A stretch of DNA of 64,000 bases from assembly GCF_000959445.1 (NCBI RefSeq), contig NZ_CP009630.1, forward strand, positions 930,001 to 994,000, given 5' to 3'. The notes under the pieces were generated by a model. The model was not told where the DNA came from. It saw nothing but the letters and a program-made list of their open reading frames with translations, and ran no database searches. This DNA is from Burkholderia vietnamiensis LMG 10929. GTDB taxonomy: Bacteria; Pseudomonadota; Gammaproteobacteria; Burkholderiales; Burkholderiaceae. A program made the translations under genes and the position numbers. Positions within the stretch are counted from its first letter, which is position 1. Every line of letters starts with the position of its first letter. Shown here piece by piece: positions 2,208 to 43,334 of the stretch.

Positions 2208-3260
2208 TCAGCGGCCGGCCGTACCGTCTTCGGCGACGGCAGCATCATACAACGCCGTCTGCGCGATCGCCGCGGCGATCTGCGCGTCGTCCTGCGTGCC
2301 CTCGAGCATGCCCCAGCGCCGGTATTGCGACAGGAACCACCGCGCCTCCTGCGGATCCGGCCGGTTCACGCCGCCGCCATCGTGGAAGCGGATCGGCAGC
2401 GGCGGCTGCGCGAACGGGCCGGCGCCGTAGTCGCCGAGCAGGCGCGGCGCGATCAGGCGGGCCGGCACGCCGAGCGCGTCGGGCGATGCGAGCCAGTCGG
2501 CGGCGTCGCGGCGGTGCGCCGGGTCGTCGAGCCACGCGCACGCATCGACGACGGTGCGGATCAGCGCGCGCGCGGTCGCCGGATACAGCGCGCCGAAATC
2601 GCGCCGCGTCGCCAGCACCTTCTCCGGATGATCGGGCCAGATCTCGCTGGTGACGGCGACGGTGCGGCCCGCGCCGCAGGCCTCGGCCACCGCGTGCCAC
2701 GGCTCGCCGGCGCAGAAGCCGTCGAGTTCGCCGCCCGCGAGCGCGGCGACCATCTCGGGCGGCGGGATCACGACGCTGCGCACGTCGCGCAGCGGATCGA
2801 CGCCGTGCGACGCGAGCCAGTGGTTCAGCCACATCGCGTGCGTGCCGGTCGGGAAGGTCTGCGCGAGCAGCGGCTTGCGGCCGAGCGTCGCGAACGCGGC
2901 GCGGACGTCGCCGCTGGCGCGGTAGGCGTCGGCGAGGCCGCGCGCGAACGTGATCGCCTGGCCGTTGCGGTTCAGCACCATCAGCGCGGCCATGTCGGCC
3001 TGCGGGCCGCCGATGCCGAGCTGCAGCCCGCAGACGAGCCCGTACAGCGCGTGCGCGGCGTCGAGTTCGCCGCTCAGCAGCTTGTCGCGCACGGCGGCCC
3101 ACGACGGCTGGCGGTGCAGCTCGAGCGTCAGCCCGTGGCGCGCGCCGAGATTCAGGCGCTGCGCGACGATCAGCGGGGCCGCATCGCTCAACGCGACGAA
3201 ACCGAGACGAAGATGCGCGCGTTCGGGCGCGGCGGGAATCGGAGGGTTCATGGTGGTCAT
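2208..3260 (-). CDS. nasS: NasS, cytoplasmic nitrate/nitrite sensor (NrtA/CmpA-like)
   Basis: 350 residues of the NrtA/CmpA nitrate-binding family but without a signal peptide or lipobox, as expected of the cytosolic sensor NasS rather than a transporter-bound receptor. Family features include LRLGFVALSDAAPLIVAQ at the start, LDAAHAL near 65, QTFPTGTHAMWLNHWL near 135, and FCAGEPWHAVA. The start overlaps the end of nasT (ATGA at 3257-3260), so the two are translationally coupled. In known NasST systems NasS holds NasT when nitrate is absent and releases it when nitrate or nitrite binds. The likely target is the leader ahead of narK in this window. Confidence 0.9.
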   Translation of the reverse strand: MTTMNPPIPAAPERAHLRLGFVALSDAAPLIVAQRLNLGARHGLTLELHRQPSWAAVRDKLLSGELDAAHALYGLVCGLQLGIGGPQADMAALMVLNRNGQAITFARGLADAYRASGDVRAAFATLGRKPLLAQTFPTGTHAMWLNHWLASHGVDPLRDVRSVVIPPPEMVAALAGGELDGFCAGEPWHAVAEACGAGRTVAVTSEIWPDHPEKVLATRRDFGALYPATARALIRTVVDACAWLDDPAHRRDAADWLASPDALGVPARLIAPRLLGDYGAGPFAQPPLPIRFHDGGGVNRPDPQEARWFLSQYRRWGMLEGTQDDAQIAAAIAQTALYDAAVAEDGTAGR

Positions 3261-3850
3261 TGTGAAGGCGCGTCGAGCAGTTGCCGCGCGACGTCGACGA
3301 TGCGCAGCCCCTGATCCATCGCGCGCTTGCGCAGCTGCGCGTAAGCATCGTGTTCGGACAGGCTGCGCCTGTCCATCAGCAGGCGTTTCGCGCGATCGAT
3401 CAGCTTGCGTTCGGCCAGCTCGCGCTCGACGTCGGCGAGCCGGCGACGCAGCGCATCGTCGTGGGAGAAGCGCGCGAGCGCGACTTCGAGAATCGGCGCG
3501 AGGCGCTCGGCCGACAGCCCTTCGACCAGATAGGCGCTGACGCCGGCGCCGACGGCCGCATGAATCAGCGCCTGGTCGGCGTCGTGGCTGAACATCAGCA
3601 CGGGGCGCGGCGCGGTCGCATGCATCACGGCCAGTTGCTCGAGCGTGTCGCGCGACGGCGAATCGGTATCGATGATCACGACGTCGGGGCGCTGCTCTTC
3701 GACGGCGGCAGGCAGGCGCGCCGGCGTCGCGACGTCGTTGAGCATCTCGTAGCCGAGGCGTGCGAGCGCGTCGCCGAGCTCGCCGATCGGCTTGTCGGTA
3801 TCGGTGACGAGCAGCACGCGCAGGCGGGCGGGCGGAACGGACGAACTCAT
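3257..3850 (-). CDS. nasT: NasT, ANTAR-domain antiterminator
   Basis: 197 residues: an N-terminal receiver-like domain (RVLLVTDTDKP, VVIIDTDSP), a coiled segment, and a C-terminal ANTAR RNA-binding domain (ERKLIDRAKRLLMDRRSLSEHDAY). This is the NasT/AmiR architecture. NasT binds paired hexaloop hairpins in nascent RNA and prevents a leader terminator from forming. Start ATG 3850 is chosen because the frame upstream (MHRSPSVPVRV) is unlike the family. nasS follows with a 4-nt overlap. A matching RNA target lies at 5333-5455, upstream of the divergent nitrate operon. Confidence 0.92.
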   Translation of the reverse strand: MSSSVPPARLRVLLVTDTDKPIGELGDALARLGYEMLNDVATPARLPAAVEEQRPDVVIIDTDSPSRDTLEQLAVMHATAPRPVLMFSHDADQALIHAAVGAGVSAYLVEGLSAERLAPILEVALARFSHDDALRRRLADVERELAERKLIDRAKRLLMDRRSLSEHDAYAQLRKRAMDQGLRIVDVARQLLDAPSQ

Positions 3851-4028: not shown

Positions 4029-4799
4029 TCACGCGGCCCACGACATCGGTGCGGCTGCGGTGTCGGGATCGGTGTCGGTGCGCTGCGCGCACGCTGCACC
4101 GATCGCGCCGCCCACGAGGATCACGGCCGGGCTGCCGAGCCGCGCGTCGTCGATGCCGCGCGCGAGGCCGCCGAGCGTGCCGGTCCAGCGGCGTTCGTGC
4201 GGCGTGCCGGCCCATTGCACGGCGGCGGCCGGCGTCGCGGCGGGCAGCGCGGCGAGCAGGCCCGTCGCGATGCTGTCGACGCGGCTCATGCCCATATAGA
4301 TCGCGAGCGTGGTGCCGGTGGCCGCCAGCGCGGCCCAGTCGGGCTCGCCGTGATCCTGGCGGTGCGCGGTGACGAACGTGACGCCCTGGCAATGTTCGCG
4401 GTGCGTGAGCGAGATGCCGAGGCTCGCGGCGGCCGCGAACCCCGACGAGATGCCGTTGACGATCTCGACCGGGATCGCGGCGGCGCGCAGCGTCGCGAGC
4501 TCCTCGCCGGCGCGGCCGAACAGCAGTGCGTCGCCGCCTTTCACGCGCACGACGTGCGCGCCGCGCAGCGCGTAGCGACGCATCAGTTTCTCGATGAACG
4601 CCTGCGGCGTGGAGCGGCAGCCGCCGCGCTTGCCGACGCGGATCACGCGCGCCTGCGGCGCAAGCTCGACGATGCCCGGCGCGACGAGATCGTCGAGCAG
4701 CAGCACGTCGGCGGCGGCCAGCGCCTTCGCGGCCTTCAGGGTGAGCAGATCGGGGTCGCCGGGCCCGGCGCCCAGCAGCGTGACTTTTCCAGTCGTCAT
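4029..4799 (-). CDS. cobA: uroporphyrinogen-III C-methyltransferase (SUMT)
   Basis: 256 residues, the usual size of a stand-alone SUMT. The SAM-dependent tetrapyrrole methylase motifs are clear: LLGAGPGDPDLLTLKA at the start, VVRVKGGDALLFGRAGEE near 90, and GISSGFAAAASLGISLTHR, with TLAIYMGM. The enzyme methylates uroporphyrinogen III at C2 and C7 to precorrin-2, the route to siroheme. Siroheme is the cofactor of NirB encoded on the other strand, so the gene fits a nitrate-assimilation role as well as general siroheme or B12 supply. It is transcribed away from narK, and nasT begins 178 nt downstream. Confidence 0.92.
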   Translation of the reverse strand: MTTGKVTLLGAGPGDPDLLTLKAAKALAAADVLLLDDLVAPGIVELAPQARVIRVGKRGGCRSTPQAFIEKLMRRYALRGAHVVRVKGGDALLFGRAGEELATLRAAAIPVEIVNGISSGFAAAASLGISLTHREHCQGVTFVTAHRQDHGEPDWAALAATGTTLAIYMGMSRVDSIATGLLAALPAATPAAAVQWAGTPHERRWTGTLGGLARGIDDARLGSPAVILVGGAIGAACAQRTDTDPDTAAAPMSWAA

Positions 4800-5168
4800 G
4801 TCGTGTTCCTGTGCCGCATGCGGCGGCGATAACGCGTTGTTGCTCGCGGCGGCGGGCGGTCGAGGCGACCACGGCGTCCCGCCGTGCCGAGCACGGGCTG
4901 GACGCCGTTGTCCACGTCGGTTCTGCCGGCCCCGCCTGGATCGGCCGGGACGGCATGGGGGAAAGACCGCCCACCGGCGCCGTTGCCGGTGTCGATAACG
5001 GATTCAGCAATAAACGGGCCAAGCGTCGCGTCGCGGCCCGCGCCCGCGGCGACGTGCGGCGCACGACGCCAGCGTGGCACGCGAACGCATGCACTCGCAT
5101 GCGGCGGCGCCCCGCATGCGATGCCCGCACCACGTGCATCGCGACGCACCGGCACGCACCGTGACGTC
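4800..5168. other. intergenic region between cobA and the narK control region
   Basis: No convincing gene. Short open frames exist on both strands but have Arg/Ala-rich composition and no ribosome binding site. It presumably holds the cobA promoter, which was not identified. Confidence 0.5.
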
Positions 5169-5204
5169 GCACGGCGATAGTGCTGCAGCGCACCACATCT
5201 GTGC
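5169..5204 (+). promoter_or_regulatory. two tandem NtrC-type binding sites
   Basis: Two inverted repeats of the form GCAC-N7-GTGC lie at 5169-5183 (GCACGGCGATAGTGC) and 5190-5204 (GCACCACATCTGTGC). Their centres are 21 bp apart, two helical turns, which is how enhancer-bound NtrC dimers are typically arranged. They lie about 130-160 bp upstream of the inferred start of the sigma-54 promoter at 5306-5320. The half-site spacing equals that of the enterobacterial NtrC consensus. Binding itself is inferred. Confidence 0.65.
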
Positions 5205-5305
5205 CGCGATGCCTCCCGACATATCGCGGCCGATTCCGCGCAAGACGGCCGACGGCGCCCGGCGAGCCTTGTACGACAGGGCGCTCGCGGAGATTTCGGG
5301 TGGCA

Positions 5306-5320
5306 TGGCACGCCGCTTGC
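5306..5320 (+). promoter_or_regulatory. sigma-54 promoter of the narK-nirBD-nasA operon
   Basis: TGGCACGCCGCTTGC matches the -24/-12 consensus (TGGCAC-N5-TTGC) at every conserved position, with GG and GC separated by exactly 10 nt. The predicted start is near 5332, which places the whole antiterminator leader at the 5' end of the transcript. The NtrC-type sites upstream fit nitrogen control through RpoN. Confidence 0.85.
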
Positions 5321-5332
5321 GTTAGCTGGCTC

Positions 5333-5409
5333 GGGCGAATCAACGGCGATTCGTCCGCAGTACCGAATACTGACGCGCCCGGCAACGGGCTTCATGGGCA
5401 ACGGCGTCC
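5333..5409 (+). promoter_or_regulatory. NasT (ANTAR) RNA target: paired AACGGC hexaloop hairpins
   Basis: Hairpin P1 at 5333-5356 has a 9-bp stem, GGGCGAATC with GATTCGTCC (one G-U), around loop AACGGC. Hairpin P2 at 5396-5409 pairs GGGC with GTCC (one G-U) around an identical loop AACGGC. Both loops have A at position 1 and G at position 4, the ANTAR recognition signature. P2 uses bases 5401-5409, which also form the 5' arm of the terminator at 5401-5455, so the two folds exclude each other. The linker between P1 and P2 can form small hairpins (CAGTA/TACTG at 5358-5372, GCCC/GGGC at 5377-5390). Confidence 0.85.
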
Positions 5410-5455
5410 TACACATCGGGTCTCGACGAGATCGGATGTGCAGGACGCCGTTTTT
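5401..5455 (+). terminator. leader terminator upstream of narK
   Basis: The 17-nt arms at 5401-5417 (ACGGCGTCCTACACATC) and 5435-5451 pair at 16 of 17 positions and are followed by TTTTT at 5451-5455. It sits after the sigma-54 start and 16 nt before the narK start codon, so it is an attenuator of the operon rather than an end-of-gene terminator. Confidence 0.9.
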
Positions 5456-5470
5456 CGTTTGGCGGATGAC

Positions 5471-6796
5471 ATGACCGACAAAGCTACCCGTATCGATCTC
5501 TTCAGCTTCCGCAGCGCGCCGATGCGTGCGTTCCACATGACGTGGATGGCGTTTTTCGTGTGCTTCTTCGCGTGGTTCGCGTGTGCGCCGTTGATGCCGC
5601 TGATCTCGCGCGAATTCCATCTCACCGCGGCGCAGGTCGCGAACATCAACATCGCCGCGGTGGCCGCGACCATCGCGGTGCGGCTGCTGGTCGGCCCGCT
5701 GTGCGACCGCTTCGGCCCGCGCCGCGTGTACGTCGGCCTGCTGCTGCTCGGCGCGATCCCCGTGTTCGCGGTGTCGTTCGTGCACGACTACCTGTCGTTC
5801 CTGATCTGCCGGCTCGGCATCGGCGCGATCGGCGCCGGCTTCGTGATCACGCAGTACCACACGTCGGTGATGTTCGCGTCGAACGTGGTCGGCACCGCGA
5901 ACGCGACGACGGCCGGCTGGGGCAACGCGGGCGCAGGCGCGACGCAGGCGATGATGCCGCTGCTCGTCGCGGCCGGCCTGCTGCTCGGCTTCGGCGACGA
6001 CGCGTCGTGGCGCATCGCGCTCGTCGTGCCGGGCATCGCGATGCTCGCGATGGCGTGGGCGTACTGGCGCTTCACGCAGGACTGCCCGCAAGGCGACTTC
6101 GTCGCGCTGCGCAAGCAGGGCGTGACGGTCGACAGCGGCAAGAAGGGCGGCTGGGCGAGCTTCTTCGCCGCGTGCGGCAACTATCGCGTGTGGATGCTGT
6201 TCGTCACCTACGGCGCGTGTTTCGGCGTCGAGGTGTTCATCCACAACATCGCCGCGCTGTACTACGTCGACCACTTCAAGCTGTCGCTGAAGGACGCCGG
6301 CTTCGCGGTCGGCCTGTTCGGGCTGCTCGCGCTGTTCGCCCGCGCGCTCGGCGGCTGGCTGTCGGACCGGATCGCCGCGCGGCGCAGCCTCGACGTGCGC
6401 GCGACGCTGCTGTGCGCGCTGATCATCGGCGAAGGGCTCGGGCTCTTGTGGTTCTCGCATGCGCAAGGCATCGGCATGGCGCTCGTCGCGATGCTGACGT
6501 TCGGCCTCTTCACGCACATGGCATGCGGCGCGACCTATGCGCTCGTGCCGTTCATCGACCGCCGCGCGCTCGGCGGCGTCGCGGGGATCGTCGGCGCGGG
6601 CGGCAACGTCGGCGCGGTGGCCGCGGCGTTCCTGCTGAAGGGCGTCGGCGACGTGCAGCACGCGCTGAGCCTGCTCGGGCTCGTCGTCACCGCGACGGCG
6701 CTGTGCGCGATGGCCGTGCGCTTCAGCGCAGAACACAAGGCACGCGAGGCCGAGCTGCGCGACCGCGCGCTGGCCACCGCGAATGCCGCGAACTGA
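5471..6796 (+). CDS. narK: nitrate/nitrite transporter, NarK/NasA-type MFS
   Basis: 441 residues with about 12 hydrophobic segments. The NNP-family signatures include FFAWFACAPLMPLI in helix 1, LVGPLCDRFGPRRVY in the first cytoplasmic loop, and the glycine-rich nitrate signature GWGNAGAGATQAMMPLLV near 140-160; a second (GGVAGIVGAGGNVGAVAAA) lies near 380. It moves nitrate (and probably exports nitrite) across the inner membrane. The start ATG 5471 lies just after the leader terminator, and nirB follows after 21 nt. Expression is expected to depend on RpoN/NtrC and NasT antitermination. Confidence 0.92.
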   Translation: MTDKATRIDLFSFRSAPMRAFHMTWMAFFVCFFAWFACAPLMPLISREFHLTAAQVANINIAAVAATIAVRLLVGPLCDRFGPRRVYVGLLLLGAIPVFAVSFVHDYLSFLICRLGIGAIGAGFVITQYHTSVMFASNVVGTANATTAGWGNAGAGATQAMMPLLVAAGLLLGFGDDASWRIALVVPGIAMLAMAWAYWRFTQDCPQGDFVALRKQGVTVDSGKKGGWASFFAACGNYRVWMLFVTYGACFGVEVFIHNIAALYYVDHFKLSLKDAGFAVGLFGLLALFARALGGWLSDRIAARRSLDVRATLLCALIIGEGLGLLWFSHAQGIGMALVAMLTFGLFTHMACGATYALVPFIDRRALGGVAGIVGAGGNVGAVAAAFLLKGVGDVQHALSLLGLVVTATALCAMAVRFSAEHKAREAELRDRALATANAAN

Positions 6797-6817: not shown

Positions 6818-9391
6818 ATGAAACTGATCGTCATCGGCCACGGGATGGTCGGCCACAAGCTGCTCGAATGCCTCGCCGCGCAAGCGGACGCGGCCGGCAC
6901 GCTGCAGGTCACGGTGCTCGGCGAGGAGCCGCGCCCGGCTTACGACCGCGTGCACCTGTCGGAATTCTTCGCGGGCAAGTCGGCCGACGACCTGTCGCTG
7001 GTCGAGCCCGGCTTCTTCGAACGGCATCGGCAGTTCGACCTGCGGCTGAACGCGCGCGTCGCGTCGATCGACCGCGCCGCGCATACGGTCACGCTCGCAT
7101 CCGGCGCAACGCTCGCGTACGACAAGCTGGTGCTCGCGACCGGCTCGCGGCCGTTCGTGCCGCCGGTGCCCGGCCACGAGCGTGACGGCTGCTTCGTGTA
7201 CCGGACCATCGAGGATCTCGAAGCGATGCAGGCGCGCGGCGCGCACGCGACGCGCGGCGTGGTGGTCGGCGGCGGGCTGCTCGGCCTCGAATGCGCGAAG
7301 GCGTTGCGCGACATGGGGCTCGACACGCACGTCGTCGAATTCGCGCCGCGGCTGATGGCGGTGCAGGTCGACGACGGCGGCGGCCGGATGCTGCGCGCGA
7401 AGATCGAGTCGCTCGGCGTGACCGTGCATACGGGCAAGAACACGCTGGAGATCGTCGACGGCGAGCAGCACGCGCACCGGATGGCGTTCGCCGACGGCTC
7501 GCATCTCGATGCCGACATGATCGTGTTCTCGGCCGGCATCCGCGCGCGCGACGAACTCGCGCGCGCATGCGGCCTCGACATCGGCCCGCGCGGCGGCGTC
7601 GCGATCGACGACGCATGCCGCACGAGCGACGCCGACATCTATGCGATCGGCGAGTGCGCGGCGTGGAACGGCATGGTGTACGGCCTCGTCGCGCCCGGCT
7701 ACGACATGGCGCGCGTGGTGGCGAAGCAGCTGGGCGGCAAGATGACCGATGCGGCCGATGCCGCATTCGCTGGCGCCGACATGAGCACCAAGCTGAAGCT
7801 GATGGGCGTCGACGTGGCGAGCATCGGCGACGCGCACGGCGCGACGGCCGGCAGCCGCACCTACCAGTACGCGGACGAGCGCCGCCAGGTCTACAAGAAG
7901 CTGGTGGTGTCCGACTGCGGCAAGTTCCTGCACGGCGCGGTGATGGTGGGCGATGCGACGGAATACGGCACGCTGCTGCAGATGATGCTGAACCGCATCG
8001 AGCTGCCGGCGCAGCCCGAGTTCCTGATCCTGCCGTCGTCGGACGGCGCGGCGAAGCCCGCGCTCGGCGTCGACGCGCTGCCGGACGGCGCGCAGATCTG
8101 CTCGTGCAACAACGTGTCGAAGTCGCAGATCTGCGCGGCGGTGGCCGACGGCGCGACGAGCCTCGGCGCGCTGAAGTCGTGCACGGGCGCGGGTACGTCG
8201 TGCGGCGGCTGCGTGCCGCTCGTCACGCAGATCATGAAGGCCGAGATGAAGAAGCAGGGCCTCGCGGTCAACAACCATCTGTGCGAGCACTTCGCGCATT
8301 CGCGCCAGGAGCTGTTCCATCTGATCCGCGTCGAGCGCATCACGACGTTCGACGAACTGCTGCACAAGCACGGTCGCGGCCTCGGCTGCGACGTGTGCAA
8401 GCCGGCCGTCGCCGGCATCCTCGCATCGTGCTTCAACGAGTTCGTGCTGAAGAAGGAGCATGCGGGGCTGCAGGACTCGAACGACTACTACCTCGCGAAC
8501 ATCCAGCGCGACGGCACGTACTCGGTCGTGCCGCGCATGGCGGGCGGCGAGGTGACGCCGGAAGGGCTGATCGCCGTTGGCCAGGTCGCGAAGAAGTACG
8601 GCCTGTACACCAAGATCACCGGCGGCCAGCGCGTCGACCTGTTCGGCGCGCGCGTCGAACAGCTGCCGTCGATCTGGGAGGAACTGATCGCGGCCGGCTT
8701 CGAATCGGGCCACGCCTACGGCAAGGCGGTGCGCACGGTGAAGTCGTGCGTCGGCTCGACGTGGTGCCGCTACGGCGTCGACGATTCGGTCGGCCTCGCG
8801 ATCGACATCGAAAACCGCTACAAGGGCCTGCGCGCGCCGCACAAGATCAAGTTCGGCGTATCGGGCTGCACGCGCGAATGCGCGGAAGCGCAGGGCAAGG
8901 ACGTCGGCATTATCGCGACCGAGAAGGGCTGGAACCTGTACGTATGCGGCAACGGTGGGATGAAGCCGCGCCATGCCGAGCTGCTCGCCTCCGACCTCGA
9001 TCGCGCCACGCTGATCCGCTACATCGACCGCTTCCTGATGTTCTACGTGCGCACCGCCGACCGGCTGCAGCGCACCAGCGTGTGGCGCGACAACCTCGAA
9101 GGCGGGCTCGACTACCTGATCGATGTGGTCGTGCACGACCGGCTCGGGATCGCGGCCGAGCTCGAGGCCGACATGCAGCACGTGGTCGACACCTACGAAT
9201 GCGAATGGAAGAAGGCCGTCACCGATCCCGAGACGCGCAAGCGCTTCCGCCACTTCGTGAACAGCGATGCGCCCGACACGACCATCGCGTTCGTCGAGAC
9301 GCGCGGCCAGATCCGCCCCGCGACGCCCGACGAGCGCCCCGGCGGCAAGCCGGTCGCGATCCCGGTCGTCGCGGAACCCGCCACCGTCTGA
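6818..9391 (+). CDS. nirB: NAD(P)H-dependent assimilatory nitrite reductase, large subunit
   Basis: 857 residues, standard NirB length. It has an N-terminal pyridine-nucleotide/FAD domain (VIGHGMVGHKLLE; VVVGGGLLGLECAKAL), and a BFD-like [2Fe-2S] domain near 427 (CSCNNV with CTGAGTSCGGC). The C-terminal half is a nitrite/sulfite reductase module with siroheme/[4Fe-4S] ligands Cys644-x5-Cys650 and Cys684-x3-Cys688. It reduces nitrite to ammonium in the cytoplasm with NADH or NADPH, together with NirD. A GAGGGAAA ribosome binding site precedes ATG 6818. Second gene of the operon; its siroheme need fits the adjacent cobA. Confidence 0.97.
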   Translation: MKLIVIGHGMVGHKLLECLAAQADAAGTLQVTVLGEEPRPAYDRVHLSEFFAGKSADDLSLVEPGFFERHRQFDLRLNARVASIDRAAHTVTLASGATLAYDKLVLATGSRPFVPPVPGHERDGCFVYRTIEDLEAMQARGAHATRGVVVGGGLLGLECAKALRDMGLDTHVVEFAPRLMAVQVDDGGGRMLRAKIESLGVTVHTGKNTLEIVDGEQHAHRMAFADGSHLDADMIVFSAGIRARDELARACGLDIGPRGGVAIDDACRTSDADIYAIGECAAWNGMVYGLVAPGYDMARVVAKQLGGKMTDAADAAFAGADMSTKLKLMGVDVASIGDAHGATAGSRTYQYADERRQVYKKLVVSDCGKFLHGAVMVGDATEYGTLLQMMLNRIELPAQPEFLILPSSDGAAKPALGVDALPDGAQICSCNNVSKSQICAAVADGATSLGALKSCTGAGTSCGGCVPLVTQIMKAEMKKQGLAVNNHLCEHFAHSRQELFHLIRVERITTFDELLHKHGRGLGCDVCKPAVAGILASCFNEFVLKKEHAGLQDSNDYYLANIQRDGTYSVVPRMAGGEVTPEGLIAVGQVAKKYGLYTKITGGQRVDLFGARVEQLPSIWEELIAAGFESGHAYGKAVRTVKSCVGSTWCRYGVDDSVGLAIDIENRYKGLRAPHKIKFGVSGCTRECAEAQGKDVGIIATEKGWNLYVCGNGGMKPRHAELLASDLDRATLIRYIDRFLMFYVRTADRLQRTSVWRDNLEGGLDYLIDVVVHDRLGIAAELEADMQHVVDTYECEWKKAVTDPETRKRFRHFVNSDAPDTTIAFVETRGQIRPATPDERPGGKPVAIPVVAEPATV

Positions 9392-9428
9392 GCTGGCCGA
9401 CGCCAGCGCCTCATTCAAGGAGCCCATC

Positions 9429-9776
9429 ATGAACGATCGTCTTCCGCTGTCCTGGACCCGCGTATGCCCGCTCGACGACATCGTGCCGAACACGGGCGTG
9501 TGCGCGCTCGTCAACGGCGAGCAGGTCGCCGTGTTCCACGTCGCGCACGCCGAAGCCGGCGGCGTGTTCGCGATCGACAACGTCGATCCGGTGTCGCAGG
9601 CCGCGGTGATGTCGCGCGGGTTGATCGGCAGCCTAGGCGAGCGCATCGTCGTCGCGTCGCCGTTGTACAAGCAGCATTTCGATCTGCGGACCGGCGAATG
9701 CCTCGAAGCACCCGACAAATCGGTGAGCGCCTATCCGTCGCGGGTCGAGGACGGTTTCGTGTGGATCGCCGCCTGA
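9429..9776 (+). CDS. nirD: nitrite reductase small subunit
   Basis: 115 residues, a NirD-type Rieske-fold protein. It has the family pattern (VCPLDDIVPNTGVCALVNGEQVAVF, LYKQHFDLRTGECLE, YPSRVEDGFVWI) but lacks the Cys/His ligands of true Rieske proteins, as is normal for NirD. AAGGAG at 9417-9422 sets the start at ATG 9429; longer upstream frames run into nirB. It forms the small subunit of NirBD. nasA follows after 16 nt. Confidence 0.95.
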   Translation: MNDRLPLSWTRVCPLDDIVPNTGVCALVNGEQVAVFHVAHAEAGGVFAIDNVDPVSQAAVMSRGLIGSLGERIVVASPLYKQHFDLRTGECLEAPDKSVSAYPSRVEDGFVWIAA

Positions 9777-9792
9777 ACGTCACGGAGCACGC

Positions 9793-12700
9793 ATGAGCGC
9801 CACCCCCGTCAAGAGCGTGTGCCCGTACTGCGGCGTCGGCTGCGGCATGGTGCTGCACGTCGAGGCTGACGAAGTCGTCAAGGTGTCCGGCGACTCCGAG
9901 CATCCGACCAACTTCGGGCGGCTGTGCACGAAGGGCTCGTCCGCGCACGTCGCGCTGCGCCGCTCCGGGCGGCTCGATCGCGCGTTCGTGCGGCGCGCCC
10001 GCGAGGACGACCTCGTCCCGTTGCCGGCCCGCGACGCGATCGCCGAGACCGCGCGCCGGCTGCGCGCGGTGCTCGACGCGCACGGGCCGGACGCGCTGTC
10101 GTTCTATGTGTCGGGGCAGATGTCGATCGAGGCGCAGTACCTCGTGAACAAGCTCGCGAAGGGCTTCGTCGGCACCAACAACATCGAGTCGAACTCGCGG
10201 CTGTGCATGGCGAGCGCGAGCACCGGCTACAAGCAGTCGCTGGGCGCGGACGGTCCGCCCGGTTCGTACCAGGATTTCGATCGCGCGAACCTGTTCTTCG
10301 TGATCGGCGCGAACATGGCCGACTGCCATCCGATCCTGTTCCTGCGGATGATGGATCGCGTGAAGGCCGGCGCGAAGCTGATCGTCGTCGATCCGCGCCG
10401 CACCGGCACGGCCGACAAGGCCGACCTGTTCCTGCAGATCCGGCCCGGCACCGATCTCGCGCTGCTCAACGGGCTGCTGCATCTGCTGCACGCGAACGGC
10501 CGCACCGACGCCGCGTTCATCGACGCGCATACCGAGGGCTGGGACGCGATGCCCGCGTTCCTCGCCGACTACACGCCGGAGCGCGTCGCCGAGATCACCG
10601 GCCTTGCGCCGGACGACCTCCGCACGGCCGCGCAGTGGATCGGCGATGCGCCGGAATGGACGAGCTGCTGGACGATGGGGCTCAACCAGAGCACGCACGG
10701 CGTGTGGAACACCAATGCGATCTGCAACCTGCATCTCGCGACCGGCAAGATCTGCCGGCCCGGCAGCGGGCCGTTCTCGCTGACCGGCCAGCCGAACGCG
10801 ATGGGCGGCCGCGAGATGGGCTACATGGGCGCCGGCCTGCCGGGCCAGCGCTCGGTGGCGTCCGACGACGACCGCCGGTTCGTCGAAAACCTGTGGCGCG
10901 TGCCGGCCGGCACGCTGCGCCAGGAGACCGGCAGCGGCACGGTCGACCTGTTCGAGCGGATGGCGGCCGGCGACATCAAGGCGTGCTGGATCATCTGCAC
11001 GAACCCGGTCGCGACGGTGCCGAACCGGCAGAACGTGATCGCGGGGCTGCAGGCGGCGGAGCTGGTGATCGCGCAGGACGCGTTCCTCGACACCGAAACC
11101 AACCGTTATGCGGACATCCTGCTGCCCGGCGCGCTGTGGGCCGAGGGCGACGGCGTGATGGTCAACTCCGAGCGCAACCTGACGCTGATGCGCGCGGCGG
11201 TGGCGGCGCCGGGCGACGCGCTGCCGGACTGGCGCATCGTCGCGGAAGTCGCGCGCGCGATGGGCTTCGGCGCGGCGTTCGACTATGCGTCGGCGGCCGA
11301 CGTGTTCGACGAGATCGTGCGGTTCTCGAACCCGGCGACCGGCTACGACCTGCGCGGCGCGAGCCATGCGGCGCTGCGCGACGGGCCGGTGCAATGGCCG
11401 GTTGCACTGGGCGCCGCGCGCGAGCGGCATCCGATCCGCTATCTGAACGACGGCGTGAGCCAGACGCTGCGGCCGGCGGCCGACGGCGGCGCCGCGCCGC
11501 GCATCGCGTTCCCGACGTCGTCGGGCCGCGCGCGCTTCTTCGCGCGACCGCACGTCGCGCCGGCCGAGTTGCCCGACGACACGTTCCCAATCGTGCTGAA
11601 CACCGGCCGCCTGCAGCATCAGTGGCACACGATGACGAAGACGGGCAAGGTCGCGATGCTGAACAAGCTGAACCCGCGTCCGTTCGTCGAACTTCATCCG
11701 GACGATGCGCGCGCGCTCGGCATCGCCGCGAAGGACAGCGTCGAGATCCGCTCGGCGCGCGGCCGCGCGGTGCTGCCGGCCGTCGTGACCGAACGCGTGC
11801 TGCGCGGCAACTGCTTCGCGCCGATGCACTGGAACGACGTGTACGGCGACGAGCTGTGCATCAACGCGGTGACGAACGACGCGATCGACGCGGAATCGCA
11901 GCAGCCCGAACTGAAATACTGCGCGGTCGCATTGACGCGCGCGGACACCAACGCGTTCGCGCCCGCCGACGACGACACGGCGCGCCCCGATGCGGCCGCA
12001 GCCGATGCCGCCCACGCAGCCGCCGCAGCCGATGCTCAGGCTGCGCCGGTATCGCTATCGGCTTCACAGGAATCCGACATGGCAGACCTCGACACTTTCG
12101 CGGCGGCGCTCGGCGTGGCCGATCTCGCGCCGCCGCCGCTCTCCGACGCGGAGCGCCTGTACGTGGCCGGCCTCGTCGGCGGGCTGCGGGCGAGCGCGGG
12201 CCGCCGCGACGGCGGCGTGCCGGTGCTGCCGGCCGGCGCGCCGCTCACGCCGCCGGTGCGCTACTGGCTCGACGGGATGCTCGCGGGGCTGTTCAGCCGC
12301 TCGGCGCCCGCACCCGCGACGGAACGCGCGGCGCCCGCGCTGCCGGCCGACGCGGCCGCGCCGGGCGGCGTGCGGATCGTGCGCACGCGGCCGAAGGTGA
12401 CGCTGCTGTGGGCGTCGCAGACCGGCAACATCGAATCGTTGACCGAGGATTACGCGACGCAGCTGATGAACGCCGGCTTCGAGATCCGCACCGCGTGCAT
12501 GTCCGATTACCCGGTCGCGTCGCTGGCGAGCGCGCAGTATGTGCTGCTGATGACCAGCACGTTCGGCGACGGCGACGCGCCCGACAACGGCAGCGAGTTC
12601 TGGGATGCACTGCAGGCGGCCGGCGCCCCGCGCGTGGAAGGCATGCAGTTCGCGGTCCTCGCGTTCGGCGATCGCAACTACGACCAGTTTTGCGGCCACG

Positions 12701-14001
12701 GCCGCCGGCTCGACGCGCGGCTCGCGGAACTCGGCGCGACGCGGCTGTGTGCGCGCGTCGATTGCGACGTCGAGTTCCAGCGCGACGCGGACCAATGGCT
12801 CGAACGCGTGGTCGCGCGGATCAAGGAGGCCGACGCGGCGCTGCACGCGGTGCCGAGCGCCGGCGCGAGCGCGTCGGGGCTGCTGCCGAGCAAGGCGCAT
12901 CCGGCGCCGTCGAAGCTCGTCGCGAACCTGCGGCTGAACCGGCCGGGCGCGGCGAAGGACACGCGCTACGTGTCGCTGTCGACCGAAGGCGCGAACCTCG
13001 AATACGAGGCCGGCGACGCGCTCGGCGTGTGGCCGACCAACTGCCCGGAACTGGTGGACGAGCTGCTGGCCGTCACCGCGTTGAAGGCCGACACGCCGGT
13101 GTCGGTGGCGGGCGTCGGCGACGTGCGCCTGGCCGATGCGCTGGCGCGCCACTTCGACATCACGCGCCCGCATCCGGACACGCTCGCGTTCATCGCGTCG
13201 CGCAGCGCGAACGGCGCGCTCAAGGCGCTGCTCGGCGACGATCGCAAGGCGGACCTCAAGCAGTGGTTGTGGGGACAACAGCTGGCCGATGTGCTGCACG
13301 AGTTTCCGGTCGAGCTGTCGGGCATGGAACTGGTCGGCATGCTCAAGCGCCTGCAGCCGCGGCTGTATTCGATCGCGTCGAGCCCGAGCGCGCATCGCGG
13401 CGAGATCCATCTGACGGTGTCGGCCGTGCGCTATCACAACGGCCGGCGCGCGCGTAAAGGCGTCGCGTCGACGTTCCTCGCCGATCGCGCGGACGACGGC
13501 CGCGTGCCCGTGTTCGTGCAGAAGTCCGCGCATTTCCGGCCTCCGGTCAACGGCGACGTGCCGGTCGTGATGGTCGGCCCCGGCACCGGCGTCGCGCCGT
13601 TCCGCGGCTTCCTGCACGAGCGGCAGGCGCGCGGCGCGCGCGGGCGCAACTGGCTGTTCTTCGGCGAGCAGCACGCGCAGACCGACTTCTATTACGGCGA
13701 CGAGCTGAGCGCGATGCGCGACAGCGGCTTCCTCACGCGGCTCGATCTGGCGTTCTCGCGCGACCAGGCCGACAAGATCTACGTGCAGGACCGGATGCGC
13801 GAACACGGCGCGGAGCTGTACAGCTGGCTCGAGGACGGCGCGCATTTCTACGTGTGCGGCGACGCCGCCCGGATGGCCAAGGACGTCGATACCGCGCTGA
13901 AGGCAGTGGTGGCCGAACACGGCGGAATGTCGGACGAAGCCGCGAACGACTACGTCGCGCGGCTCGCGAAGGCGCGGCGGTACGTGCGGGACGTGTATTG
14001 A
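9793..14001 (+). CDS. nasA: assimilatory nitrate reductase fused to a CysJ-like flavoprotein
   Basis: 1402 residues. Residues 1 to about 710 are a molybdopterin bis-MGD nitrate reductase of the NasA/NarB type: [4Fe-4S] motif C10-x2-C13-x3-C17-x27-C45, NNIESNSRLCMASA near 130, and a C-terminal Molydop-binding domain (LNTGRLQHQWHTMTKTGK). After an Ala/Pro-rich linker (about 720-865) come a flavodoxin domain (LLWASQTGNIESLTEDYA), an FAD-binding_1 domain (RLYSIASSPSAH) and an NAD(P)-binding domain (GPGTGVAPFRGFLHER), ending RRYVRDVY as in CysJ. The fusion should carry electrons from NADPH through FAD/FMN to the Mo site in one chain. Last gene of the operon. Confidence 0.95.
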   Translation: MSATPVKSVCPYCGVGCGMVLHVEADEVVKVSGDSEHPTNFGRLCTKGSSAHVALRRSGRLDRAFVRRAREDDLVPLPARDAIAETARRLRAVLDAHGPDALSFYVSGQMSIEAQYLVNKLAKGFVGTNNIESNSRLCMASASTGYKQSLGADGPPGSYQDFDRANLFFVIGANMADCHPILFLRMMDRVKAGAKLIVVDPRRTGTADKADLFLQIRPGTDLALLNGLLHLLHANGRTDAAFIDAHTEGWDAMPAFLADYTPERVAEITGLAPDDLRTAAQWIGDAPEWTSCWTMGLNQSTHGVWNTNAICNLHLATGKICRPGSGPFSLTGQPNAMGGREMGYMGAGLPGQRSVASDDDRRFVENLWRVPAGTLRQETGSGTVDLFERMAAGDIKACWIICTNPVATVPNRQNVIAGLQAAELVIAQDAFLDTETNRYADILLPGALWAEGDGVMVNSERNLTLMRAAVAAPGDALPDWRIVAEVARAMGFGAAFDYASAADVFDEIVRFSNPATGYDLRGASHAALRDGPVQWPVALGAARERHPIRYLNDGVSQTLRPAADGGAAPRIAFPTSSGRARFFARPHVAPAELPDDTFPIVLNTGRLQHQWHTMTKTGKVAMLNKLNPRPFVELHPDDARALGIAAKDSVEIRSARGRAVLPAVVTERVLRGNCFAPMHWNDVYGDELCINAVTNDAIDAESQQPELKYCAVALTRADTNAFAPADDDTARPDAAAADAAHAAAAADAQAAPVSLSASQESDMADLDTFAAALGVADLAPPPLSDAERLYVAGLVGGLRASAGRRDGGVPVLPAGAPLTPPVRYWLDGMLAGLFSRSAPAPATERAAPALPADAAAPGGVRIVRTRPKVTLLWASQTGNIESLTEDYATQLMNAGFEIRTACMSDYPVASLASAQYVLLMTSTFGDGDAPDNGSEFWDALQAAGAPRVEGMQFAVLAFGDRNYDQFCGHGRRLDARLAELGATRLCARVDCDVEFQRDADQWLERVVARIKEADAALHAVPSAGASASGLLPSKAHPAPSKLVANLRLNRPGAAKDTRYVSLSTEGANLEYEAGDALGVWPTNCPELVDELLAVTALKADTPVSVAGVGDVRLADALARHFDITRPHPDTLAFIASRSANGALKALLGDDRKADLKQWLWGQQLADVLHEFPVELSGMELVGMLKRLQPRLYSIASSPSAHRGEIHLTVSAVRYHNGRRARKGVASTFLADRADDGRVPVFVQKSAHFRPPVNGDVPVVMVGPGTGVAPFRGFLHERQARGARGRNWLFFGEQHAQTDFYYGDELSAMRDSGFLTRLDLAFSRDQADKIYVQDRMREHGAELYSWLEDGAHFYVCGDAARMAKDVDTALKAVVAEHGGMSDEAANDYVARLAKARRYVRDVY

Positions 14002-42704: not shown

Positions 42705-42929
42705 GATGCGGCGAGCGTGGTCGTGTTGCAGATGCGGCGTGCGCGCGAGCCAGCGCCGCGCACGCAGGCGGTGCAGCGGCGCGATGCTTCCGGCGCGGAA
42801 GCGAGGGCGGTAAGAATGAACATGCGAAGCGTTCAGAGGTCGGGGCCGTCCATGCAACGGGGCGACCGCCAACGGCGGTGCCGGCGCATCGGGACACCCC
42901 GCCCGGTGCGGCTGCTGGACCTCGGGTCG

Positions 42930-43092
42930 ATGGCAGGTCTCCTGGCTTGCGGGTCGTCATCCGCGCCGGCCTTCCCGGTTTCCCAGTGGCGCGTGGTGGC
43001 GCGGATTCACCGCTTACAGTTGCGGGGGCAGCCGCAGATTGGAGGCTCGGCCTCTGCTGCGTTCCCTTTTGATCCCGTCTCCGGGAACCATC
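42930..43092 (-). promoter_or_regulatory. cobalamin (AdoCbl) riboswitch
   Basis: Read on the minus strand, the region has the conserved elements in order: GGTTCCC near 43083-43089, AAAAGGGAA, the core GCTGCCCCCGCAACTGTAAG (near 43019-43038), CCACTGGG, GGGAAGG, and the B12 box GCCAGGAGACCTGCC at 42932-42946. It lies about 225 nt upstream of btuB, in the sense orientation. It should repress btuB when adenosylcobalamin is plentiful. Confidence 0.96.
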
Positions 43093-43334
43093 GGTGCGCA
43101 AGCGTAAGGGCGAGCACGCCGGCACGTCAATCGTCGAATCGCGCAGGGGTGCGAAAAAACGTCACCGCGCGTCGAATGCTCGCGGATGGCGTGTCGCGGG
43201 CGCGACGGAGCGCATTTCAGATCTGATGAAAGCGGCTGGCCGTGGCGGGGCGATATGAGGCTGGAACGCGCGCGTCCTCGTCGTTCGAACGAGGCGGTGG
43301 GGTGTTGCGCCGGGAGCGCGCGCCCCCGGCGATT

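Follow-up and report, generated by a model that had tools for sequence, protein, structure and literature searches.

A transcription attenuator closely resembling the leader described here precedes the nitrate assimilation operon nasF of Klebsiella oxytoca. According to the accessible text on this system (PMC7496416), two hexaloop hairpins are present, the consensus selected by the regulator NasR has A at loop position 1 (A1), G at position 4 (G4) and a C:G closing pair, and readthrough occurs in nitrate. The same loop positions and closing pair are found ahead of narK in Burkholderia vietnamiensis, for which readthrough in nitrate is likewise predicted. The nasF regulator is the one-component NIT-ANTAR protein NasR (PMC7496416), whereas B. 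vietnamiensis encodes NasT with a separate sensor, NasS; its narK linker is 38 nt long and has two predicted further hairpins, of which one is conserved. The eutP leader of Enterococcus faecalis, the target of EutV, shares with the narK leader the hexaloop hairpins P1 and P2, A1 and G4, and the position of P2 within the 5' arm of the terminator, but its linker is 5-12 nt and length-sensitive (PMC3369931, PMC8934654), compared to 34-67 nt in the leaders studied here. In eut leaders a linker of 14 nt already failed (PMC3369931), and an extension by 20 nt abolished antitermination (PMC8934654). Linkers in a curated actinobacterial ANTAR set measure 2-25 nt (PMC8164766), which is a curation range and no definition; the 2012 model permitted a variable linker (PMC3369931). 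As far as the consulted passages go, eut, ami and nasF are the experimentally tested ANTAR attenuators, and the tested linker-length rule stems from eut.

An antiterminator NasT paired with a nitrate-sensing NasS is described for Paracoccus, Azotobacter and Bradyrhizobium (PMC5424462, PMC6759348, PMC3795266). In Paracoccus, the leader hairpin HI is required at nasA, and an NtrC site lies at nasT (PMC5424462). In their accessible parts, these reports describe no leader with two hexaloops for the operon that encodes the regulator itself (PMC5424462, PMC6759348); unlike there, the Burkholderia nasTS genes lie with cobA on the opposite strand and have their own σ54-type element and leader. Since Burkholderia was already named among the predicted hosts of ANTAR targets in 2012 (PMC3369931), the narK leader is, judged from its sequence, an expected further example of the known ANTAR/NasT switch class. 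Own-operon leaders, long linkers and a triple hexaloop, all treated below, were not found described in the open-licence papers as far as consulted.

We analysed a 64-kb stretch of the B. vietnamiensis LMG 10929 genome, hereafter the window. Its intergenic region 4800-5470 separates two divergent gene groups, narK-nirB-nirD and a reductase fusion rightward and cobA-nasT-nasS leftward. The genes and promoter elements are as follows.

2208-3260, minus strand: nasS, nitrate-binding-protein-like sensor (NMT1_2, 278 bits; NrtA 2g29, E 3.9e-52)
3257-3850, minus strand: nasT, receiver-like plus ANTAR domain (PF03861, 64.3 bits)
4029-4799, minus strand: cobA-type uroporphyrinogen-III C-methyltransferase (NF004790 and TIGR01469 above cut-off)
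5007-5021, minus strand: σ54-type element TGGCCCGTTTATTGC of cobA-nasT-nasS (one mismatch; a similar element in place in relatives)
5169-5183 and 5190-5204, no strand assigned: tandem palindromes GCAC-N7-GTGC, NtrC-like, between the divergent promoters
5306-5320, plus strand: σ54-type element TGGCACGCCGCTTGC of the narK operon (exact match to the pattern)
5471-6796, plus strand: nitrate transporter of the narK/nasA type, heading the operon (MFS_1; best NCBIfam match TIGR00886 with 285 bits, below its cut-off of 312)
6818-9391, plus strand: nirB, nitrite reductase large subunit (domain and NCBIfam matches)
9417-9776, plus strand: nirD, nitrite reductase small subunit (domain and NCBIfam matches)
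9793-14001, plus strand: fusion of a nitrate-reductase-type molybdopterin protein and a CysJ-like flavoprotein (best NCBIfam matches mostly below cut-offs)

The nearest solved chain to NasT is 1s8n, a 'putative antiterminator', followed by 6wsh, 4akk (nitrate regulatory protein) and 1qo0 (AmiR). A receiver-like ANTAR protein is encoded beside a nitrate-binding-protein-like sensor. Presumably, the cobA product supplies siroheme to NirB. Among the matches listed, which may omit records very close to the window, the nearest narK homologues are 96% identical and belong to Burkholderia ambifaria and B. territorii. The last gene of the rightward group encodes a nitrate-reductase-type protein and a CysJ-like NADPH flavoprotein as a single 1402-aa fusion.

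The tandem palindromes resemble the NtrC consensus. The best match between -180 and -60 of the σ54-type element had zero mismatches in 92/109 loci, compared to 2/109 mononucleotide-shuffled ones. Allowing one mismatch, the σ54 pattern itself is no more frequent in the window than chance predicts (5 matches, 4.8 expected), and the element ahead of narK carries weight because of its conserved spacing and not because of the pattern match: in 82 of 109 loci, its start and the P1 loop are 36 nt apart. Because the element ends at 5320, the narK transcript is predicted to start near 5332, where P1 begins. A scan of 4800-5600 for σ70-type promoters found none; the terminator finder of the same scan overlooked the narK terminator and reported a different site.

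The stretch 5332-5460, which immediately precedes the narK-nirB-nirD-nitrate reductase genes on the plus strand, contains the following elements.

5332-5357, plus strand: P1 hexaloop hairpin, 10-bp stem, loop AACGGC at 5342-5347 (fold and covariation)
5377-5390, plus strand: linker hairpin GCCCG-GCAA-CGGGC, GNRA-capped, no ANTAR hexaloop (five pairs unchanged in 44/44 distinct Burkholderia leaders)
5396-5409, plus strand: P2 hexaloop hairpin GGGC-AACGGC-GTCC, predicted antiterminator, loop at 5400-5405 (A1 and G4 in 110/110 loci)
5400-5452, plus strand: intrinsic terminator stem, its 5' arm overlapping the loop and 3' arm of P2 (fold and covariation)
5451-5460, plus strand: T-rich tail TTTTTCGTTT of the terminator (a T-run of at least 4 in 109/110 loci with P2)

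An earlier sequence-only reading had described both hairpins as carrying the loop AACGGC with A1 and G4, the second sharing bases with the 5' arm of a strong attenuator, and nasT as lying 1.5 kb away on the other strand. All of this was borne out: the ten bases AACGGCGTCC are common to P2 and the 5' arm of the terminator, which is followed by the U-tract, and nasT occupies 3257-3850. The stem of P2 comprises only 4 bp including one G-U pair, and because the terminator outcompetes it, P2 is missing from the minimum-energy fold. The stretch as a whole folds far better than shuffled sequences (z = -7.7; 0/200 shuffles as good). At the gathering threshold no Rfam family matches the narK leader, and the single match in the window sits elsewhere. 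A further candidate, linker hairpin II (5358-5372), was dropped, since its pairs are not conserved in an alignment judged by eye.

We propose, with a probability of about 0.86, that the narK leader (5332-5460) is controlled by NasT and attenuates transcription as a member of the ANTAR dual-hexaloop class. This proposal is based on the two hairpins, the overlap of P2 with the terminator, the covariation of P1, the invariance of the loop positions and the joint loss of regulator and attenuators in one lineage. Under nitrogen scarcity, the σ54-type element and the NtrC-like sites would start an RNA near 5332. In the absence of nitrate, NasT would be sequestered by NasS, and the folded terminator would end transcription near 5460. 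In nitrate, NasT would be freed from NasS and bind first the loop of P1 and then that of P2 via A1 and G4; P2 held by NasT would keep AACGGCGTCC out of the terminator, allowing polymerase to read through. Such antitermination, as in nasF, eutP and Paracoccus nasA, is the simplest reading. Several observations count against it. The 38-nt linker is longer than the eut limits, P2 is weak and missing from the minimum-energy fold, and the narK gene of Bradyrhizobium has predicted NasT hairpins, yet its expression rose in a nasT mutant (PMC6759348), so that predicted hairpins did not predict NasT dependence there. The open-licence papers, as far as consulted, contained no expression or binding data on the action of NasT in Burkholderia.

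The best-surviving alternative, which we nevertheless consider improbable, is that the terminator is leaky and unregulated, that the hexaloops are by-products of its palindrome, and that NtrC and σ54 alone control the operon. Two observations favour it. A composite motif of two A1/G4 hexaloops at most 70 nt apart, the second overlapping a downstream complementary arm, occurs once per strand in the 64-kb window, compared to a mean of 0.18 per strand in 60 shuffles, so that a single occurrence is no rarity; the one on the minus strand is the second leader treated below. Moreover, the orthologous operon depends very strongly on NtrC: in an ntrC mutant of B. cenocepacia H111, the nas operon fell by 6.5 to 6.8 log2 units and nasT by 8.1 (PMC5491218), a drop that also fits the tandem NtrC-like palindromes between the promoters. 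Given these frequencies, neither the composite motif nor the σ54 pattern is decisive singly; position and conservation decide.

For conservation, we compared 114 narK loci, namely that of the window, 80 named ones and 33 further genus-genome loci, with species overlap between the last two sets. Together they hold 92 distinct leader sequences. The group labels (Burkholderia, Caballeronia-type and others) are our own, and six Caballeronia-type loci are titled Burkholderia; one leader (L007, genome G056) was left out of the comparison. In the set of 80, the P2 pattern was matched in 77 and missing in L030, L079 and L080; no leader was seen upstream of narK in L079. Every recognised P2 (110 of the 114 loci) carries A1 and G4. 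For P1, the best hexaloop hairpin 30-42 nt past the σ54 start was picked blind to its loop letters, and had A1 and G4 in 105 of 109 loci with a recognised element. The four exceptions comprise two from one genome with a mismatched stem, one misplaced σ54 site and L079. When distinct P1 rows from both leader types (see below for the second) were aligned, with L027, L168, L033 and L062 re-anchored by hand and L079 and five element-less loci excluded from the narK rows, A1 and G4 were invariant (110/110) and A2 was present in 109. The closing pair was C:G in all 110 rows; in P2 the C:G pair was built into the search pattern and is not independent evidence.

Positions 3 and 5 of the P1 loop vary in these rows. 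The weight that the sequence-only reading had placed on identical loops did not hold up, as P1 and P2 share one loop sequence in no more than 47/103 loci. Because positions 1 and 4 are fixed, 3 and 5 vary and loop identity is this infrequent, the constrained feature in the aligned sequences is A-A-N-G and not loop identity. That position 3 varies and 1 and 4 never do argues against hexaloops as palindrome by-products.

Covariation pointed in the same direction for part of the structure. Among 44 distinct Burkholderia leaders, 97.3% of the cells in P1 and the terminator pair, compared to 31-51% with slid partners. In the same alignment 8 pairs and 28 cells had changed on both sides, a level reached in 0/500 shuffles, with the caveat that relatedness alone can beat shuffles without structure. 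Both Burkholderia and the Caballeronia/Paraburkholderia group have compensatory changes in P1. In Collimonas, Herbaspirillum and Janthinobacterium, P1 showed no covariation: the inner five pairs are invariant, and 78/90 cells are paired compared to a shuffle mean of 77 and maximum of 80. P2 alone is too conserved to give a signal. Thus, where the sequence-only reading had named a lack of covariation in relatives as refuting, P1 and the terminator covary in Burkholderia, and the strongly conserved P2 and the P1 of the Collimonas group provide no such backing. P1 lies outside the terminator, yet it covaries and keeps A1 and G4, and its spacing from the promoter element hardly changes, which again speaks against a merely leaky terminator. 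The two-hairpin ANTAR target that had been proposed is thus supported by covariation, A1/G4 invariance, promoter spacing and co-loss in one genome.

A covariance model found the narK leader with E <1e-18 in 62/65 genus genomes; as it was built from such leaders, it maps their distribution and is no independent discovery. It missed the one genome without an ANTAR protein (G215) and two fragmentary assemblies (G224, G257) in which narK is cut or was not found. Twenty further leaders from the family, picked by hand, without exception contained P2 and, at the expected offset, a hexamer with A1 and G4. In 14 of them the uninterrupted P1 stem measured at least 4 bp; it was less than 4 bp in 6/20, which counts against the proposal. 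Regarding further NasT targets in the B. vietnamiensis genome, the model at E up to 1 found only the narK leader and the match that its palindrome produces in antisense; it fails on the second leader (12 bits, E 0.17, window alone), so other diverged targets could escape it. Weak matches elsewhere (L180-L186) were rejected as leaders: L180 and L181 precede a transposase-like gene, and the others resemble ordinary terminators by eye. The two transposase-like gene copies, both in genome G202, are preceded by GGGCAACGGCGTCC, the same 14 letters as P2 of the window, and a matching terminator, without a clear P1.

The ANTAR regulator and the leader were also compared by their presence. An ANTAR protein is encoded in 64/65 genus genomes and in 38/39 of the named genomes searched. 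In both sets, the sole genome without one is that of B. guangdongensis (L030 and G215, identical in leader sequence). Here nasT and nasS are absent from the locus and cobA remains, the narK leader has kept the σ54-type element, P1 and the GNRA hairpin and has lost P2 and the terminator, and of the cobA leader only the σ54-type element and 32 nt ahead of the start codon are left. Across the Burkholderia genomes that we compared, a decayed narK leader is seen nowhere except where the ANTAR protein is missing, which speaks against an unregulated terminator. This joint loss of ANTAR protein and attenuators is one lineage and not a statistic, and as a sequence comparison it is suggestive. In another genome (G247), the own-operon leader was lost and NasT kept, which counts against the proposal.

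In the family as a whole, 134/299 genomes have a narK homologue and 209/299 a NasT homologue. A narK gene without a NasT match was found in 6/134, five of which carry another ANTAR protein (lists compared by eye). The four of these proteins that were scanned (L187, L188, L190, L191) are all of the NIT-ANTAR (NasR) type, and all five genomes keep a dual-hexaloop narK leader, so that the regulator seems to have been exchanged, from NasT to NasR-type, beneath the same kind of RNA leader. These genomes lend some colour to the idea that the narK leader of the window obeys a NasR-type protein with a NIT sensor instead of NasT; as NasT is the only ANTAR protein found in its 6.9-Mb genome, we regard this as extremely unlikely. 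Equally hard to credit is ribosome-mediated attenuation by a leader peptide from the ATG just ahead of P2 (near 5394), whose frame is open to a stop overlapping the narK start, since only 36/110 loci have ATG there (otherwise TTG, CTG, TCG, AAG, ACG, CCG or CAG) and P1 would be left without explanation.

The long linker between P1 and P2, together with its conserved GNRA hairpin, had been missed by the sequence-only reading, as had the second leader. At 38 nt, including the GNRA-capped hairpin, it exceeds the published range of 2-25 nt, and 82 distinct narK linkers measure 34-67 nt (a value of 70 nt for L033 resulted from a misplaced P1 and was discarded). Wherever the stem of the GNRA hairpin is present (58 of the 114 loci), its loop is GNRA (GCAA, GCGA, GAAA or GTAA); because its pairs never vary, it yields no covariation evidence. 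In Collimonas, Herbaspirillum and Janthinobacterium, all 17/17 leaders upstream of narK (L061, L063, L068-L077, L081, L082, L084-L086) have a third A1/G4 hexaloop as the best hairpin with a six-base loop in their linker, ending 1-12 nt ahead of P2, compared to 0 of 66 distinct linkers of other groups in the identical test. By sequence comparison, this lineage has the canonical short spacing between its middle hexaloop and P2, and in Burkholderia the GNRA hairpin occupies the middle position. A general rule of folded linkers spanning the distance from P1 to P2 was not supported: the median z of narK linkers (60 shuffles each) was -1.3 in Burkholderia, -1.4 in the Caballeronia type, -2.2 in the triple-hexaloop lineage and +0.5 in Paraburkholderia and others, where linkers are no more folded than shuffles. 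Linkers of the second leader had a median z of -1.0 (Burkholderia) and -0.1 (Caballeronia type). Between them, 92 distinct narK leaders, long linkers, a natural deletion, apparent regulator swaps and triple hexaloops make the use of two hexaloops by one ANTAR dimer testable.

The second leader precedes cobA-nasT-nasS and spans 4991-4871 on the minus strand, behind the σ54-type element at 5021-5007, with a linker of 58 nt.

4972-4991, minus strand: P1 of the second leader, CACCGGC-AACGGC-GCCGGTG (covariation)
4925-4954, minus strand: linker hairpin of the second leader (fold)
4900-4913, minus strand: P2 of the second leader, GGAC-AACGGC-GTCC (A1, A2 and G4 in 76/76 parsed loci)
4871-4909, minus strand: terminator-like stem lacking a U-tract, part of the second leader (fold)

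It too has two A1/G4 hexaloops, and its fold is less striking than that of the narK leader (z = -2.55; 6/200 shuffles as good). The terminator-like stem ends at 4871, 71 nt ahead of the cobA start, and no U-tract follows it in the window. We could parse this leader in 76 of the 114 loci, 54 of Burkholderia and 22 of the Caballeronia type. In the named set, 34 loci lack it, none of which shows a divergent cobA-nasT pair in its flank (mostly 3 kb; 385 nt for L056). Four genus loci lack it as well: L169 has no ANTAR protein, L167 has kept nasT, and in both L178 and L179 a P1-like hairpin is present and no P2 was recognised. Outside Burkholderia and Caballeronia, the pattern detected no such leader beside nasT in 30 loci (L117-L146) with flanks of up to about 1.5 kb.

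Where parsed, the P1 loops of the second leader have A1, A2 and G4 in 75/76 loci, the remaining one being a misparse, and its P1 stem covaries (137/138 and 105/114 cells paired, above all 500 shuffles). A T-run of at least 4 is found in only 17/76 second leaders (6/54 in Burkholderia, 11/22 in the Caballeronia type), compared to 109/110 narK leaders. In six loci the P2 loop reads AACGAC or AACGAT, by which the terminator stem is weaker and A1 and G4 are kept. Because the U-tract is mostly gone while A1 and G4 persist, the hexaloops thus appear to outlast the terminator.

NasT would act on its own mRNA too through this leader, although the effect is uncertain because the U-tract is mostly missing. 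The leader could be a leaky attenuator, a site of another type of termination, or an RNA that binds NasT and so titrates the protein it encodes. For the last of these a natural model exists in EutX, which is under riboswitch control. EutX/Rli55 sequesters EutV and is thus an ANTAR-binding RNA that is not the attenuator of a target gene (PMC8934654); it is a separate small RNA, whereas the second leader would belong to the cobA-nasT-nasS mRNA. The full version of this idea, in which the second leader is a self-titrating trap for NasT, its two NasT-binding hexaloops retained by selection while its terminator decays, and the linker has become a GNRA spacer or a third hexaloop in related lineages, overriding the eut short-linker rule, is tentative and on balance rather unlikely. 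If it were true, the amount of NasT absorbed by nasT mRNA would scale with the synthesis of that mRNA, and this would set the nitrate threshold at which the divergent nas operon responds. More generally, the own-operon leader suggests a feedback loop, of which the open-licence papers, as far as consulted, give no description.

Two further observations concern the window. Over 4860-5390, both leaders are near-identical to those of L162 (G263), though the narK gene of G263 shows no more than 87% identity; judged by eye, the similarity drops at the GNRA hairpin, which suggests recombination inside the leader. Finally, the Rfam scan of the window placed a cobalamin riboswitch at 42915-43107 on the minus strand (115.9 bits).
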